From: Methylobacterium sp. AMS5
GTDB taxonomy: Bacteria; Pseudomonadota; Alphaproteobacteria; Rhizobiales; Beijerinckiaceae
DNA length: 64,000 bases
Assembly: GCF_001542815.1 (NCBI RefSeq)
Contig: NZ_CP006992.1
Location: 850,001 to 914,000 of the forward strand
Direction of reading: 5' to 3'
The notes under the pieces were generated by a model that ran no database searches, was not told the origin of the DNA, and saw nothing but the letters and a program-made list of their open reading frames with translations. Both the position numbers and the translations under genes were made by a program. Positions 16,989 through 35,411 of this stretch are shown in pieces (position 1 is the first letter of the stretch; the number at the start of each line of letters is the position of its first letter).

Positions 16989-17440
16989 CTTACGACACGG
17001 TCCCTGTTCGATGTCGCGGACCGACCCAAGGACCTTAGGTCGGCAGCGCTTGAGCCTTGGCCAGCGTCTTCGGGTATCTCGAAACGCTTCTACTACCGGG
17101 TCAGGTCAGACAGATGCGTTTTGGAGGCAACCGTATCGCAGGGGTTTAGCCTAGCCGCAGCATCACCATGAAGTGCATACGCAATGCAAGAGCCTACCTG
17201 TTGCCGGATGAAAGTTTTCGGTTTTCCGATAGGTTTCTGTTCACTAGACGTTCCTGCAGCGAGATCGACGACTCCATCCGGAGTTTGCTGGGATTTCTCA
17301 CGAATTCGCTGAGGCAGCCCCCCTGCAAGCCACAAGCGGTGCGCAGGGCACTACCTCAGCTTACGATCGAAACTACGTAGAGTCATCATATTCGAGCGGT
17401 CGCGTCGGGGCCGGCTCGCTCAGATCGGGAGCGTCACGGC
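16989..17440. other. long lower-GC intergenic region
   Basis: About 450 bases between the divergent XRE gene and the monooxygenase-like gene, visibly richer in A and T than its surroundings (17170-17400). Two opposing short frames (17168-17380 plus, 17093-17335 minus) lack convincing starts or protein-like composition, and I do not call either. No terminator, tRNA or repeat of the two dispersed families was seen. It may hold a decayed gene or a transferred fragment. Confidence 0.4.
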
Positions 17441-23205: not shown

Positions 23206-24089
23206 CGTTTGCCGATTGCCTTGATTTCCTGATCGGCCCCTTCGTGGAGTTCGGCTTCATGCGCCGGGCGCTCGCCGGGTGCCTCGCGCTGTCCCTGTCG
23301 GCACCGCCGCTCGGCGTCTTCCTGATGCTGCGCCGGATGAGCCTGATGAGCGAGGCGATGAGCCACGCCATCCTGCCCGGCGCCGCCGCGGGCTTTCTCG
23401 TCGCCGGGCTGTCGCTGCCGGCGATGACGCTGGGCGGGCTCGTGGCCGGGCTCGCGGTGGCGCTGGCCGCCGGGCTCGTCACCCGCTCGACCGTGTTGAA
23501 GGAGGATGCGAGTTTGGCCGCCTTCTACCTGATCTCGCTGGCAGGCGGAGTGTTCCTCGTGTCGCTGCGCGGCTCGCAGGTCGATCTGCTGCACATCCTG
23601 TTCGGCACCGTGCTGGCGCTGGATGACGACGCGCTCACGCTGCTCGGCGGCATCAGTAGCCTGACGCTGATCGCGCTCGCCCTGCTCTACCGCCCGCTGG
23701 TGATCGAGTGCGTCGATCCGCTGTTCCTGCGCACGGTCAGCCGCGCCGGCGGCCCGGTGCACTCCGCCTTCCTCGCGCTCGTGGTGGTTAACCTCGTCGG
23801 TGGCTTCCAGGCGCTCGGCACGCTGCTGGCCGTCGGCCTAATGCTGCTGCCGGCGATCACCGCCCGATTCTGGGCCGCCGACCTGTCGGGCCTGATCCCG
23901 GTGGCGATGCTGGTCTCGATGCTCTCCAGCGTGACCGGCCTGCTGGTCTCCTACCACGCCGGCATCCGGCTCCCGACGGGGCCGGCGATCGTGTTGGCGG
24001 CGGGCGCGCTCTACCTCGTCTCGATGCTGGTCGGCCCCCGCGGCGGCCTGATCCATCGACTCGTGCGGCGGCGTCACCTGGAGGCGTGA
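23202..24089 (+). CDS. znuB: zinc ABC transporter permease
   Basis: A 295-residue ABC-3 family permease with eight or so hydrophobic segments. The family marks MLRRMSLMSEAMSHAILPGAAAGFL near the N-terminus and VVNLVGGFQALGTLLAVGLMLLPAITARFWA in the second half identify it as the membrane subunit for zinc or manganese; Zur context favours zinc. It overlaps znuC by four bases. The next gene is on the same strand but separated by 260 bases with its own promoter, so the zinc operon ends here. Confidence 0.93.
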   Translation: MTFADCLDFLIGPFVEFGFMRRALAGCLALSLSAPPLGVFLMLRRMSLMSEAMSHAILPGAAAGFLVAGLSLPAMTLGGLVAGLAVALAAGLVTRSTVLKEDASLAAFYLISLAGGVFLVSLRGSQVDLLHILFGTVLALDDDALTLLGGISSLTLIALALLYRPLVIECVDPLFLRTVSRAGGPVHSAFLALVVVNLVGGFQALGTLLAVGLMLLPAITARFWAADLSGLIPVAMLVSMLSSVTGLLVSYHAGIRLPTGPAIVLAAGALYLVSMLVGPRGGLIHRLVRRRHLEA

Positions 24090-24295: not shown

Positions 24296-24325
24296 TTTAC
24301 ACAGAACAAAACAGGAACAAAAATC
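24296..24325 (+). promoter_or_regulatory. promoter with alphaproteobacterial LexA box (GAAC-N7-GAAC)
   Basis: GAAC at 24304-24307 and 24315-24318 are separated by exactly seven bases, matching the alphaproteobacterial LexA direct-repeat operator GAAC-N7-GAAC (the same as GTTC-N7-GTTC on the other strand). It falls between a TTTACA -35-like hexamer (24296-24301) and an AAAAAT -10-like hexamer (24319-24324) with 17-base spacing, the ideal place for repression. The downstream gene starts at 24351. LexA binding has not been tested. Confidence 0.6.
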
Positions 24326-24350
24326 ACTCCATCAACAGGGAGTGGAAGCG

Positions 24351-24455
24351 ATGACCAAGCGTGTGCTCTTCACCAGCCTCGTCGAGTTCACCGCCTTTGG
24401 CCTGCTCTTCGGAGCGGTCGCGCTCTGGGCGGTAGCCTTGGCGCCGATCCATTAA
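24351..24455 (+). CDS. 34-residue inner-membrane protein, probably SOS-regulated
   Basis: Very short ORF of 34 codons, MTKRVLFTSLVEFTAFGLLF followed by a further hydrophobic stretch and ending APIH. A basic N-terminus precedes one membrane segment of about 23 residues. It has a strong ribosome-binding site (AGGGAG, about 10 bases upstream) and a LexA box inside its promoter. Caulobacter SidA is a 29-residue, LexA-controlled inner-membrane peptide that halts division by acting on FtsW/FtsN; size, topology and control here are similar, but I cannot assert sequence homology. Other options are a small stress peptide or a type I toxin-like protein. It lies 205 bases upstream of dnaE. Confidence 0.6.
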   Translation: MTKRVLFTSLVEFTAFGLLFGAVALWAVALAPIH

Positions 24456-24660: not shown

Positions 24661-27600
24661 ATGGCGCGCACACTCAAAGAGGTCGGCTTCGTCCACCTCC
24701 ATGTCCACTCGTCCTACTCGCTGCTCGAAGGCGGCGTGAAGGCGGGTGATCTCGTCAAGGCGGCCGCGGCCGACCGGCAGCCCGCGCTCGCGCTCACCGA
24801 CACCAATAACCTGTTCGGGGCGCTGGAATTCTCCGAATACGCCGCCAAGGCGGGAATCCAGCCGATCGCAGGCCTGCAGCTCACGATCTGCTTCGAGGCG
24901 CCGGACCCGATGGCGCGTCTGCCCCAGGCCGGCTGCGCCAACATCGTGCTGCTCGCCCAGGACGAGGCCGGCTACGGCAACCTTCTGCGACTCGGAAGCC
25001 GGGCCCATTTCGACGGTCCGCTCGGTGCCGCGCCCAACCTCGCCGTCTCGGCCTTGGAGGGGAACGTCGAGGGCTTGATCGGCCTGACCGGCGGGCTCAC
25101 GGGACCGCTCGACACCAGTCTGCGCGCCGGCCGCGCCGATCAGGCCGCGCGCCGCCTGGAGATCCTGAAAGGGGCGTTCGGCGAGGAGCGGCTCTACGTC
25201 GAGATCCAGCGCCACGGCCTCGACGACGAGCGCGCGGTCGAGCGCGAATTGCTGCGGCTCGCCGATACGAACGGTCTGGGCATCGTCGCGACCAACGAGC
25301 CGTTCTTCGCCAAGCCCGGCGATTACGACGCGCACGACGCCCTGCTCGCCATCGCCGATGGCCGCCTCGTCTCCGACGAGCGCCGCCGCCGGCTGACGCC
25401 ACGCCACGCCTTCACCACGCGCGCCGCGATGATGGAGCTGTTTCGCGATCTGCCGGACGCGCTCTCGGCCTCGGTCGAGATCGCCATGCGCTGCGCCGTT
25501 CGGGCGCGTACCCGCAAACCCATCCTGCCGAATTTCGCCAGCGTCGCCGCGGGCGAGGCCCCGCCCATGGCCGAGGCACTGGCCGAGGCCGCCGAGACGC
25601 CGGTTCAGGCGGTGGCCGCCGACGAGCCGACCGAGCTGTGCCGGCAAGCGGAAGCCGGACTGGACCTCCGCCTGAAGCAGCACGGCACCGCCCCCGGCTT
25701 CACGGAGGAGGATTACCGCGCGCGGCTGAAGTTCGAGCTCGACGTCATCGTCAAGATGAAGTTCCCGGGCTACTTCCTGATCGTCTCGGACTTCATCAAG
25801 TGGGCCAAGGACCACGATATCCCCGTGGGACCGGGCCGCGGCTCGGGCGCGGGCTCCTTGGTGGCGTGGTCGCTGCTCATCACCGACCTCGACCCGCTTC
25901 GCTTCGGCCTGCTGTTCGAGCGCTTCCTCAACCCCGAACGCGTCAACATGCCGGACTTCGACATCGACTTCTGCGTCGAGGGCCGCGAGCGGGTGATCCG
26001 CTACGTGCAGCAGCGCTACGGCGAGCGGCAGGTCGGGCAGATCATCACCTTCGGGACATTGCTCGCCCGCGGCGTGCTGCGCGATGTCGGCCGCGTGCTG
26101 GAGATGCCCTACGGGCAGGTCGACAAGCTGACCAAGCTCGTGCCGCAGAACCCGGCCAAACCGGTGACGCTGGCCCAGGCGATCGAGGGCGAGCCCAAGC
26201 TCCAGCAGGCGATCGAGGAGGAGCCGATCGTCGCCCGCCTCGTCGAGATCTCGAAGAAGCTGGAGGGCCTGCATCGCCACGCCTCGACCCACGCCGCCGG
26301 CGTGGTGATCGGCGACCGGCCGCTCGAAGAGCTGGTGCCGCTCTACCGAGACCCGAAGACGGGCATGCGGGTGACCCAGTTCAACATGAAGTGGGTCGAG
26401 GAAGCCGGCCTCGTGAAGTTCGATTTCCTCGGCCTCAAGACCCTGACGATGCTGCGGTGCTGCACCGATCTGCTCAAGCAGCGCGGCATCGAGGTCGATC
26501 TCGCTCAGATCCCGCTCGACGACAAGAAGACCTACGAGCCGATGGGCCGCGGCGAGACCGTCGCGGTGTTCCAGGTGGAATCCGCCGGCATGCGCAAGGC
26601 GCTCTGCGAAATGCAGGCCGACCGCCTGGAGGATATCATCGCGCTGGTGGCGCTCTACCGGCCGGGCCCGATGGCCAACATCCCGGTCTATTGCGAGCGC
26701 AAGCTCGGGCGCGACGCCGGCAACGAGGCGAGCTGGTACTTGCACCCGATGCTGGAGCCGATCCTGAAGGAGACCTTCGGGATCATCGTCTACCAAGAGC
26801 AGGTGATGGAGATCGCCAAGCTCCTGGCCGGTTACTCGCTTGGGCAAGCCGACGTCCTGCGGAAAGCCATGGGCAAGAAGATCCGTGCGGAGATGGACGC
26901 CCAGCGCGACCGCTTCGTGAAGGGCTGCGCCGAGAACGGCCTGACCACGGCCAAGGCCGACGAGATCTTCGACCTGCTCGCCAAGTTCGCCGATTACGGC
27001 TTCAACAAGTCCCACGCGGCGGCCTACGCGCTGGTGACCTACCAGACCGCCTATCTGAAGGCGAACCATCCGGTCGAGTTCCTGGCCGCGGCCATGACGC
27101 TCGATATCGACAACACCGACAAGCTCGCCGAATTCCGCCAGGATGCGCAGCGCCTGAAGATCACGGTCGAGCCGCCGTCGGTGAACACCTCGGGCGTGGT
27201 GTTCGAGGTGCGGGAGGGGCGCATCCTCTACGCGCTCGCCGCGATCAAGGGCGTCGGCCGCTCGGCGGTGGAGTCGATCGTCGCCGCGCGCGGCGACACG
27301 CCGTTCAAGGACCTCGCCTGCTTCGCCCGCCGCCTGAACCCGCGCCACGTCAACAAGCGCACGCTGGAAAACCTGATCGCGGCCGGCGCGCTGGACTGCA
27401 TCGAGCCGGACCGGGCGCGGGCCTGGGCCGCGGTCGAGCCGATGATGAAGATGGCCCAGGGCGCGGCCGAGGCCGAGACCTCGGGCATCACCGACATGTT
27501 CGGCGGCGTCGCCTCGGTGGATGTGGCGTTGCGCATCCCAGCCCACGAATTCTGGACCCACACCGACAAGCTGAAGCGCGAATGCGACGCCATCGGCTTC

Positions 27601-28182
27601 TTCCTCTCGGGTCATCCGCTCGACGAGTACGGGCCGATCCTCGAAAAGCTGCGGGTCCAGTCCTGGGCCGATTTCTGCCGGGGGGTGCGGGCGGGCACGG
27701 CCAGCGTGGGCCGCATCGCCGCCTCGGTGCTCGACCGCTCGGAGCGGCGCACCAAGAGCGGCAACAAGCTCGGCATCGTCATCCTCTCGGATCAGACCGG
27801 GCATTTCGAGGCGATCATCTTCTCCGAGGGGCTCAACCAGTACCGCGACATCCTCGAACCCGGCCGGCCGCTGGTGCTGACGATCCAGGCCAACCTGGAG
27901 GGCGAGGACGTGCGCGCCCGCATCACCACCGCCGAGCCGCTCGATCAGGCCGCCGCCCGCCACCAGAAGGGCATGCGCATCTTCCTGCGAGACGACCGCG
28001 CCCTGAGTTCGGTGCAGCAGCGCCTGACCCTTCGTGGCGAGGGCGAGGTCTCGCTGATCCTGATCCTCGATGGCGGCGAGCGCGAGGTCGAGGTGCGGCT
28101 GAAGGACCGCTACCAGGCAACCCCGCAGGTCGCGGGTGCGCTGCGCGCCGTGCCGGGGGTGGTGCAGGTCGAGGTGAACTGA
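24661..28182 (+). CDS. dnaE: DNA polymerase III subunit alpha
   Basis: Replicative polymerase subunit of 1173 residues. The N-terminal PHP domain starts at FVHLHVHSSYSLLEG; the polymerase core carries the Asp-rich catalytic loop MPDFDIDFC (about residues 430-438), GPGRGSGAGSLVAW and KFDFLGLKTLTML; a helix-hairpin-helix and an OB fold (NKLGIVILSDQTGHFEAIIF) follow. Length, complete PHP domain and the C-terminal extension mark it as the housekeeping DnaE1 rather than the SOS mutagenesis polymerase DnaE2. The ATG at 24661 is preceded by AGGGTCCTCC. The stop codon directly abuts a family B repeat. Confidence 0.96.
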   Translation: MARTLKEVGFVHLHVHSSYSLLEGGVKAGDLVKAAAADRQPALALTDTNNLFGALEFSEYAAKAGIQPIAGLQLTICFEAPDPMARLPQAGCANIVLLAQDEAGYGNLLRLGSRAHFDGPLGAAPNLAVSALEGNVEGLIGLTGGLTGPLDTSLRAGRADQAARRLEILKGAFGEERLYVEIQRHGLDDERAVERELLRLADTNGLGIVATNEPFFAKPGDYDAHDALLAIADGRLVSDERRRRLTPRHAFTTRAAMMELFRDLPDALSASVEIAMRCAVRARTRKPILPNFASVAAGEAPPMAEALAEAAETPVQAVAADEPTELCRQAEAGLDLRLKQHGTAPGFTEEDYRARLKFELDVIVKMKFPGYFLIVSDFIKWAKDHDIPVGPGRGSGAGSLVAWSLLITDLDPLRFGLLFERFLNPERVNMPDFDIDFCVEGRERVIRYVQQRYGERQVGQIITFGTLLARGVLRDVGRVLEMPYGQVDKLTKLVPQNPAKPVTLAQAIEGEPKLQQAIEEEPIVARLVEISKKLEGLHRHASTHAAGVVIGDRPLEELVPLYRDPKTGMRVTQFNMKWVEEAGLVKFDFLGLKTLTMLRCCTDLLKQRGIEVDLAQIPLDDKKTYEPMGRGETVAVFQVESAGMRKALCEMQADRLEDIIALVALYRPGPMANIPVYCERKLGRDAGNEASWYLHPMLEPILKETFGIIVYQEQVMEIAKLLAGYSLGQADVLRKAMGKKIRAEMDAQRDRFVKGCAENGLTTAKADEIFDLLAKFADYGFNKSHAAAYALVTYQTAYLKANHPVEFLAAAMTLDIDNTDKLAEFRQDAQRLKITVEPPSVNTSGVVFEVREGRILYALAAIKGVGRSAVESIVAARGDTPFKDLACFARRLNPRHVNKRTLENLIAAGALDCIEPDRARAWAAVEPMMKMAQGAAEAETSGITDMFGGVASVDVALRIPAHEFWTHTDKLKRECDAIGFFLSGHPLDEYGPILEKLRVQSWADFCRGVRAGTASVGRIAASVLDRSERRTKSGNKLGIVILSDQTGHFEAIIFSEGLNQYRDILEPGRPLVLTIQANLEGEDVRARITTAEPLDQAAARHQKGMRIFLRDDRALSSVQQRLTLRGEGEVSLILILDGGEREVEVRLKDRYQATPQVAGALRAVPGVVQVEVN

Positions 28183-33041: not shown

Positions 33042-33066
33042 CCGTGTTCGTGTTATGTTCTGGTAC
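33038..33066 (+). promoter_or_regulatory. promoter region with LexA-like box (GTTC-N7-GTTC) before parC
   Basis: GTTC at 33046-33049 and 33057-33060 with exactly seven bases between, preceded by a TTGACC -35-like hexamer at 33038-33043. A 17-base spacing would put TGGTAC at the -10, which is a weak match. It lies 5 bases after the recO stop and 105 bases before the parC start. The arrangement fits a LexA-repressed promoter, but the evidence is motif only. Confidence 0.45.
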
Positions 33067-33164: not shown

Positions 33165-35411
33165 ATGGGCCAGCCCGTCCTGCCGCCGCCGAGCGACGGC
33201 ATCGAGAGCGTCGAGCTGAAGACGGCGCTGGAGGAGCGCTACTATGCCTATGCGCTCTCCACGATCATGCAGCGCGCGCTGCCCGACGCCCGCGACGGCC
33301 TGAAGCCGGTGCATCGGCGCATCCTCTACGGCATGAACCTGCTGCGCCTGAACCCGACCTCGGCGTTCAAGAAATGCGCGAAGATCGTCGGCGACGTGAT
33401 GGGTGACTTCCACCCCCACGGCGACCAGGCGATCTACGACGCGCTGGTACGCCTCTCCCAGGATTTCGCCCAGCGCTACCCGCTCGTCGACGGCCAGGGG
33501 AATTTCGGCAACATCGACGGCGACGGTCCGGCGGCCTACCGCTACACCGAGGCGCGCCTCACGGAAGTCGCCCGCCTGCTGCTCGACGGGATCGAAGAGG
33601 ACACGGTCGATTTCCGCGCCTCCTACAACGGCGAGAAGGAGGAGCCGATCGTCCTGCCGGCGGCCTTCCCGAATCTTCTGGCCAACGGCAGCCAGGGCAT
33701 CGCGGTCGGCATGGCGACCTCGATCCCGCCGCACAACGCGGCCGAACTCTGCGACGCGGCGCTGTACCTGATCCAGAACCGCGAGGCGACGTCCGAGCAG
33801 CTCTGCACCTTCGTGCAGGGGCCGGACTTCCCCACCGGCGGCATCCTGATCGACACGCCCGAGACCATCCGCGAGGCCTACCGCACCGGCCGCGGGGGTT
33901 TTCGCGTGCGCGCCCGCTGGGCCAAGGAGGATCTCGGCCGCGGCACGTGGAACATCGTCGTCACCGAGATTCCCTACGGCGTGCCGAAGGCGCGCCTCAT
34001 CGAGAAGCTCGCCGACCTGCTGCAGGAGAAGAAGCTGCCGCTGCTCGCCGACGTGCGCGACGAATCGGCGGAGGACGTGCGTGTCGTGCTGGAGCCGCGC
34101 TCGCGCTCGGTCGATCCGGTGATGCTGATGGAATCGCTGTTTCGGCTCTCGGAGCTGGAATCGCGGATCCCGCTGAACCTCAACGTGCTCGTCGGCGGCG
34201 TCGTGCCCCGCGTCATCGGTCTCGCCGAGTGTCTGCGCGAGTGGGTCGATCACCGCCGCGTCGTGCTTCAGCGCCGCTCGAGCTACCGCCTCGGCCAGAT
34301 CGAGCGGCGCCTCGAAATCCTCGGCGGCCTGCTCATCGTCTATCTCGACCTCGACGAGGTGATCCGCATCATCCGTGAGGAGGACGAGCCGAAGGCCGCC
34401 CTGATGGCCCGGTTCGAACTCACCGAGGTCCAGGCCAACGCGATCCTCGACACCCGCCTGCGCTCCCTGCGCAAGCTCGAAGAGATGGAGCTGAAGCGCG
34501 AGTTCGAGGCACTGACCGCGGAGAAGGAGGGGATCGAGGGATTGCTGGCCTCCGAGAAGCTCCAATGGTCGGAGATCACCCGGCAGATCCGCGCGGTGAA
34601 GAAGACCTTCGGGCCCGAGACCAAACTCGGCCGCCGCCGCACCACGCTCGAGAACCCGCCCGACACCGCCGGCATCGACTTCACCGCCGCCATGGTCGAG
34701 CGCGAGCCGATCACGGTGATCCTGTCCGAGAAGGGCTGGATCCGGGCGCTCAAGGGGCATGTGACCGAACTGGCGGGGGTCGCTTTCAAGGGCGACGACA
34801 CGCTGAAGGTCGCCTTCCTCAGCGAGACGACGGCCAAGATCCTGCTGCTCGCTTCGAACGGCAAGGTCTTCACCATCGAAGCCTCGAAGCTGCCCGGCGG
34901 GCGCGGCTTCGGCGATCCGGTGCGGCTGATGGTCGATCTCGACGACGGCACCGAGATCGTCGCGGCCCTGCCCTACAAGCCGGAGAGCAAGCTGCTCGTC
35001 GCCGGCTCGGACGGGCGCGGCTTCATCGCGCCGTCCGACGCGCTGGTCGCCAACACCCGGAAGGGCAAGGCGATCCTCGGCCTCGACGAGGGGACGCGCG
35101 CGGTACTGCTGGTGCCGGCCGAGGGCGACCACGTCGCCGTCTGCTCATCCGACAAGCTGATGCTGGTCTTCCCGGCCTCTGAAGTCACGGAACTCGGCCG
35201 CGGCAAGGGCGTGCGCCTGCAACGCTGCCGCCAGAGCCAGCTTGCGGATGCCTGCGTCTTCACACTGGCGGAGGGCCTGCCCTGGCGCGACGGCTCGGGT
35301 CAGGCGCGGCTCGCCAATGCGGGCATGCTGGAGAAGTGGATGGGCCACCGGTCCGATGCCGGCACGCTGATGACCCGCAGCTTCCCGAAATTCGAGCGGT
35401 TCGGGAAGTAG
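33165..35411 (+). CDS. parC: DNA topoisomerase IV subunit A
   Basis: Type IIA topoisomerase subunit that decatenates daughter chromosomes. Visible are [31 protein letters not shown] near the N-terminus, the quinolone-region [17 protein letters not shown], and the DNA-linking Tyr in [11 protein letters not shown]. The long coiled-coil arm, with a leucine-containing [23 protein letters not shown], precedes a reduced beta-propeller C-terminal domain. The 748-residue length and the lack of a full GyrA box favour ParC over GyrA. The ATG at 33165 has GGAGTGAGTG upstream; a GTG directly before it is possible. Confidence 0.93.

Follow-up and report, generated by a model that had tools for sequence, protein, structure and literature searches.

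The window, a stretch of 64,000 nucleotides of Methylobacterium sp. AMS5, contains a 34-codon ORF that lies between a LexA-type operator and dnaE1, and the encoded peptide is most likely a positional orthologue and distant homologue of the Caulobacter division inhibitor SidA, not an unrelated analogue. We favor orthology because the two peptides occupy the same slot before dnaE1, are preceded by the same type of operator and are linked in sequence through intermediate families. An earlier sequence-only reading of this DNA had called the peptide analogous to SidA, a description that the shared slot, the operator type and the intermediate-family link now replace.

Promoter, LexA-type operator and peptide ORF in the window

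The peptide ORF, which was recognized by its conservation, its omega and its profile matches, occupies positions 24351-24455 of the forward strand (stop codon at 24453-24455), and its translation is MTKRVLFTSLVEFTAFGLLFGAVALWAVALAPIH. On the same strand, a ribosome-binding site, AGGGAG, can be read at 24337-24342, with the ATG 8 nt further on. A scan for sigma-70-like pairs detected a -35-like hexamer, TTTACA (24296-24301, forward strand), and a -10-like hexamer, AAAAAT (24319-24324, forward strand), separated by a spacer of 17, and this was the sole such pair between positions 23800 and 25000 (mean of 0.1 in shuffled sequences). The LexA-type operator GAACAAAACAGGAAC, assigned by motif match and by its conservation in the genus, is located within the promoter spacer at 24304-24318 of the forward strand and is flanked by TTTACA and AAAAAT, which confirmed the original observation of a GAAC-N7-GAAC repeat between a -35/-10-like pair. 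The 34-codon ORF, its ribosome-binding site and its single helix, all proposed in that reading, were also borne out, and the AlphaFold model of the 34-residue peptide was a single helix spanning residues 2-30, with a mean pLDDT of 95.3. From its hydrophobicity, the peptide is predicted to insert into the membrane. An alternative GTG start at 24342, which would give 37 codons, was set aside because the ATG at 24351 is the start aligned among the relatives. The conserved downstream neighbor is dnaE1 (24661-28182, forward strand), which encodes the replicative DNA polymerase III alpha subunit and starts 205 nt after the stop codon of the ORF.

The GAAC-N7-GAAC motif was found three times in the window, against 1.31 matches expected, and 18 of 100 shuffles reached three, in agreement with the earlier remark that the motif alone would be unsurprising in 64 kb. 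In the whole genome (5.6 Mb, four contigs, both strands), it occurred 157 times, compared with 84 times for the reversed control pattern. The third strict match of the window, at 17239-17253, has a spacer unlike that of the recA site of this genome and may be a chance occurrence.

LexA-type sites were present elsewhere in the same genome, ahead of recA (GAACAAAACAAGTAC, with one imperfect half-site), ahead of lexA (GAACAGGAGAGGAAC) and near ssb (GTTCTATCTCTGTTC); recA and lexA were located by family, and ssb was named from its translation. The core of GAACAAAACAGGAAC resembles the recA site, and GAACAAAACAGGAAC also resembles the lexA site. The Caulobacter LexA-operator consensus, as given in the accessible part of the source, is GTTC-N7-GTTC (PMC12700426), and this operator pattern of the SidA family, sought on either strand, was found in 37 of 37 loci of the genus. 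These comparisons lend good support to a conserved LexA-type operator before the peptide ORF.

A LexA-type box, GTTCGTGTTATGTTC, is located at 33046-33060 of the window, ahead of parC (starting at 33165), which was named from its translation as topoisomerase IV subunit A. A strict box was found no more than 350 nt upstream of parC in all 30 genus loci read, with parC itself present in 31 of 31 genomes, and parC looks SOS-controlled in this genus; the best 10 of 89 literature matches contained no report of such control. In addition, a second, divergent recA-like gene lies on a smaller contig (G000:C2:102269-103072, L043), and the only plasmid match of its plasmid-like region was a Methylobacterium oryzae record, with 77.5% identity over 49%.

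Conservation of the peptide ORF and its box

The peptide ORF was present in all 37 same-genus genomes searched (the window's own included), and in all 37 loci a strict GAAC-N7-GAAC begins 44-58 nt before the start codon. The sequence-only reading had staked its proposal on the conservation of ORF and box in close relatives, and the proposal withstood this comparison. Among genomes from the order's other genera (24 covered), the same search detected no true relative; the single match (E 0.63) reads as a YidD-like protein and was rejected. When the 130 nt ahead of the ORF were aligned, the mean column identity was 0.94 in the box versus 0.54 outside positions -60 to -25. The half-site columns are invariant across the genus, and the bases between the two halves differ in a few species. 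The -35-like hexamer is TTTACA or TTGACA in part of the genus, and in species whose -10 region is of the GAACATAAT or GAACATACT type it is degenerate. The pairwise omega of the ORF was ~0.34 (509 of 666 pairs, those within the pS range used), and by this measure the ORF shows purifying selection. The motif count alone is within chance, and it is the conservation in the genus that places the combination of box and ORF beyond it.

We found dnaE1 downstream of the peptide ORF in 32 of the 37 genus loci. In four others (L020-L023), the box and the ORF are kept with no dnaE1 start within 1.5 kb downstream, and in the fifth locus in which dnaE1 was not seen the contig ends after 146 nt. The box stays with the ORF where dnaE1 is not close, and in the one of those four genomes whose kilobase upstream of dnaE1 was read (L131), that kilobase contained neither a strict box nor a family member; the operator therefore belongs to the small peptide gene. 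A simple scan for a terminator between the ORF and dnaE1 gave hits in 4 of 37 loci, against a shuffled rate of 4.2%, and thus no conserved terminator was found.

With a profile of 21 genus peptides, 298 genomes of the family were searched. All 25 same-genus genomes matched at 4.7e-14 or better, and the best match in another genus, at 1.8e-6, was in genus g56; at E 1 or better, 132 other genomes of the family matched, most of them surely by chance. Examination of 25 other-genus loci from the best-scoring matches showed a strict box upstream in 24 and dnaE1 downstream in 23. Beyond the genus, comparable ORFs, each with a single or a double box, precede dnaE1 in further genera of the family and across many of the order's families. 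In 19 of the 20 loci read from the sister genus g56 (L076-L080, L082-L092, L095, L097 and L098), the operator is present as two boxes that lie 21 nt, or two helical turns, apart.

A search for dnaE1 itself, independent of the peptide, located the gene in 188 of the 193 genomes covered from the class and in all 120 covered from the order, and ~1 kb upstream of it was read at 155 places, 69 in the order and 86 outside. Two of these stretches are shorter, one (L105) is misplaced and ends inside dnaE1, and the others stop where DnaE starts; L256 was left out as the same genome as L210. The 155 stretches contained 78 strict boxes, compared with 6 matches to the reversed control pattern. A family member scoring at least 12 bits was detected in 49 of them (39/69 in the order and 10/86 outside). 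No family member was found at 12 bits in the other 106 loci, which include the misplaced L105 and of which 76 are outside the order, and this count weighs against the SidA reading.

In 45 of the 49 member loci, a strict box lies 10-110 nt upstream of the member, and when a strict box was accepted at any position and in both orientations within the stretch, 46/49 member loci contained one versus 13/106 of the others; this association is partly circular, as 40 of the 49 members match a training peptide and the training peptides were picked near boxes. The remaining nine members match no training peptide, and two of these (L137 and L181) are close to trained ones. With position ignored, a 31-row profile (A2), which itself contains peptides from the families searched, matched 66 of the 149 genomes from the order and 16 of the 289 from the class at E 0.01.

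Antisense strands served as the background for the 12-bit scan, replacing a decoy set of short hydrophobic ORFs that was dropped as unusable because its high scorers, which lay upstream of dnaE1, were family members that had not been marked. L173 alone gave the highest antisense score, 20.1 bits, and the next score was 6.9. At L173 (family f11), a LexA-box region is on the opposite strand upstream of dnaE1, and a longer frame there matches the profile with its C-terminal part at 20.1 bits. This frame is perhaps a displaced or fused relative of the SidA-like peptides, or perhaps a chance match.

Relation of the window peptide to SidA

We take sidA to be CC1927 in Caulobacter. In the parts of the sources available, SidA is described as an inner-membrane peptide of 29 residues that acts on FtsW (PMC4211646) and is listed as CCNA_02004 (PMC11034885), and dnaE1 is listed as CC1926 (PMC1839093, Table 7). 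A Caulobacter-like DnaE query found C. vibrioides DSM 9893 (L258), in which the LexA box GAACATCTTGTGAAC, a 29-codon ORF and dnaE1 follow one another in this order, and the 29-codon ORF is SidA according to NCBIfam NF033228 (72.4 bits, 2e-20, cut-off 35). The 66 loci with at least 67% identity to the DnaE query are Caulobacterales by title or likeness, and 63 of them had enough upstream sequence. Scored with a profile that had been trained without any Caulobacterales peptide, all 63 loci contained a peptide candidate of at least 7 bits, and 61 of them one of at least 9 bits. A strict box was present in 40 of the 63 loci, and a box with at most one mismatch in 62.

Direct comparison did not connect the two peptides. 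NF033228 (curated cut-off 35 bits) gave no match to the window peptide at E 10, and none of four peptides compared with Pfam matched a family at E 10. The window peptide scored 0.8 bits against an order profile from which most of its own family had been removed, a score that 110 of 294 scored shuffles reached, and C. vibrioides SidA scored 0.7 bits against the sister-genera profile, which 393 of 1000 shuffles reached. Against a profile combining the order and the sister genera, SidA had a marginal score of 8.3 bits (reached by 9 of 1000 shuffles). Direct homology between the window peptide and SidA was thus sought by profile comparison and with NF033228, and was not found. Six of the 31 rows of profile A2 did match NF033228 at E 10.

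The link emerged through other families. A profile trained without Methylobacterium and without Caulobacterales scored both peptides higher than any of their 1000 shuffles: the window peptide reached 26.4 bits, against 10.3 for its best shuffle, and C. vibrioides SidA reached 17.7 bits, against 11.2. In held-out scans, from which L103, L104 and L131 were excluded and in which L173 did not count toward the antisense maximum, a SidA-only profile placed 20 of 151 non-Caulobacterales dnaE1-upstream loci above that maximum, 15 of them with a strict box and a few of them short, apparently spurious fragments (L110, L153 and L159). A profile of the window family only placed 13 of 152 dnaE1-upstream loci above the maximum, all 13 with a box. 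Peptides of family f151 were picked up by both profiles.

With 34 residues and a predicted helix over residues 2-30, and with its gene directly upstream of dnaE1 at a distance of 205 nt, the window peptide has the size, predicted helix and position of the SidA family. The description of the peptide as SidA-like in size, topology and control with no evident sequence identity stood as regards the size, the predicted helix, the operator and the lack of a direct match; it gave way in that a profile ties the two peptides together through intermediates. Homology to SidA is supported, without a direct match, by this transitive profile link together with the common operator type and the common position.

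A candidate division checkpoint and its known counterparts

We consider it likely that the whole chain holds, with the window peptide being SOS-induced and inhibiting the FtsW/FtsI/FtsN complex in the manner of SidA. LexA binding, SOS induction, topology, the FtsW/FtsI/FtsN target and division arrest are what we infer from the genomic comparisons. In an undamaged cell, LexA would sit on the promoter spacer and block transcription. Upon DNA damage, RecA would become active and LexA would cleave itself, allowing the peptide to be made. The peptide would then enter the inner membrane as one helix, its N-terminus probably in the cytoplasm, as suggested by the K3R4 cluster, and, acting through the FtsW/FtsI/FtsN complex of septal synthesis, would delay septation for as long as the lesions await repair.

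The size class, the single predicted helix and the undetectable direct similarity to SidA would also suit an SOS-induced membrane peptide with another target, either a depolarizing peptide of the TisB/DinQ type or an envelope regulator, that occupies the same place by coincidence; E. coli has such SOS peptides (DinQ and TisB), according to the portions of the literature available. We regard this as unlikely, given that the slot before dnaE1 and the operator type are the same as those of SidA, that the family profile connects the two peptides, and that the order of residues is conserved beyond mere hydrophobicity (0/1000 shuffles).

Another reading assigns the box to dnaE1, whose transcription it would lift under damage, with the ORF as a by-product or a regulatory upstream ORF. 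The adjacency of dnaE1 in 32/37 genus loci and the terminator scan (4/37 loci, shuffled rate 4.2%) are consistent with such a leader. However, four loci retain the box with the ORF away from any nearby dnaE1, the protein shows purifying selection, and in other families the peptide is kept at a very variable distance from dnaE1, which together make this role quite improbable. We give practically no weight to a chance GAAC-N7-GAAC before a random short ORF: the motif count of the window is within expectation, but the joint occurrence of ORF and box in 37/37 genus genomes and the excess of strict boxes over the reversed control upstream of dnaE1 (78 versus 6 in 155 stretches) both speak against it, and chance placement of the box was rejected on the genus conservation.

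SidA-type inhibition by an SOS-induced peptide is thus the reading we prefer. A broader proposal, plausible but tentative, is that the SidA checkpoint is not peculiar to Caulobacter but an old alphaproteobacterial module, consisting of a LexA box and a 30-residue membrane peptide beside dnaE1, that has diverged too fast for homology searches. In the Methylobacterium branch of such a module, the conserved acidic residue would have shifted along the helix by roughly a turn (E12), together with the fixation of a Trp, and this may reflect an altered contact with the divisome. Because no conserved terminator separates the ORF from dnaE1, SOS transcription may run into dnaE1 and couple the division brake with polymerase supply.

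The kind of peptide is already known from SidA, and the window's branch is not recognized by NCBIfam or Pfam (four peptides). In its available text, a 2022 review of the SOS response mentions SidA once, for C. crescentus (PMC9578287). The literature matches listed, in whose coverage subscription papers are mostly not included, did not include any SidA homologue reported from this order, or any description of what stops division under DNA damage in alphaproteobacteria outside Caulobacter. Current annotation may greatly understate how common the SidA-type damage checkpoint is. Many families now have a concrete, testable candidate division inhibitor, which can be located by looking for a LexA box and a short ORF ahead of dnaE1, and the natural differences among these peptides could be used to map how some 30 residues might hold the septal synthase.

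YneA of Bacillus and SosA of Staphylococcus are likewise SOS-induced division inhibitors; they are larger Gram-positive proteins and are not known to be related to the SidA-like peptide. YneA is reported, in the accessible part of the source, to act on FtsW (PMC13396833). DidA of Caulobacter is also a small division inhibitor that is induced by damage and has a single membrane helix, and, as described in the available text, it differs in its length of 71 residues, in being induced by DriD instead of the SOS system, and in its interaction with FtsN (PMC4211646). SidA differs from the window peptide in length (29 versus 34 residues), in the RES...FVWMM pattern that belongs to the Caulobacter peptides, and in lacking the conserved W26 that, together with a conserved E12, characterizes the window group; the two are not directly similar at a detectable level, and NF033228 misses the window peptide. 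They have in common the slot between a LexA-type box and dnaE1, a length of ~30 residues with one membrane helix (predicted for the window peptide), and a match to the same other-families profile.
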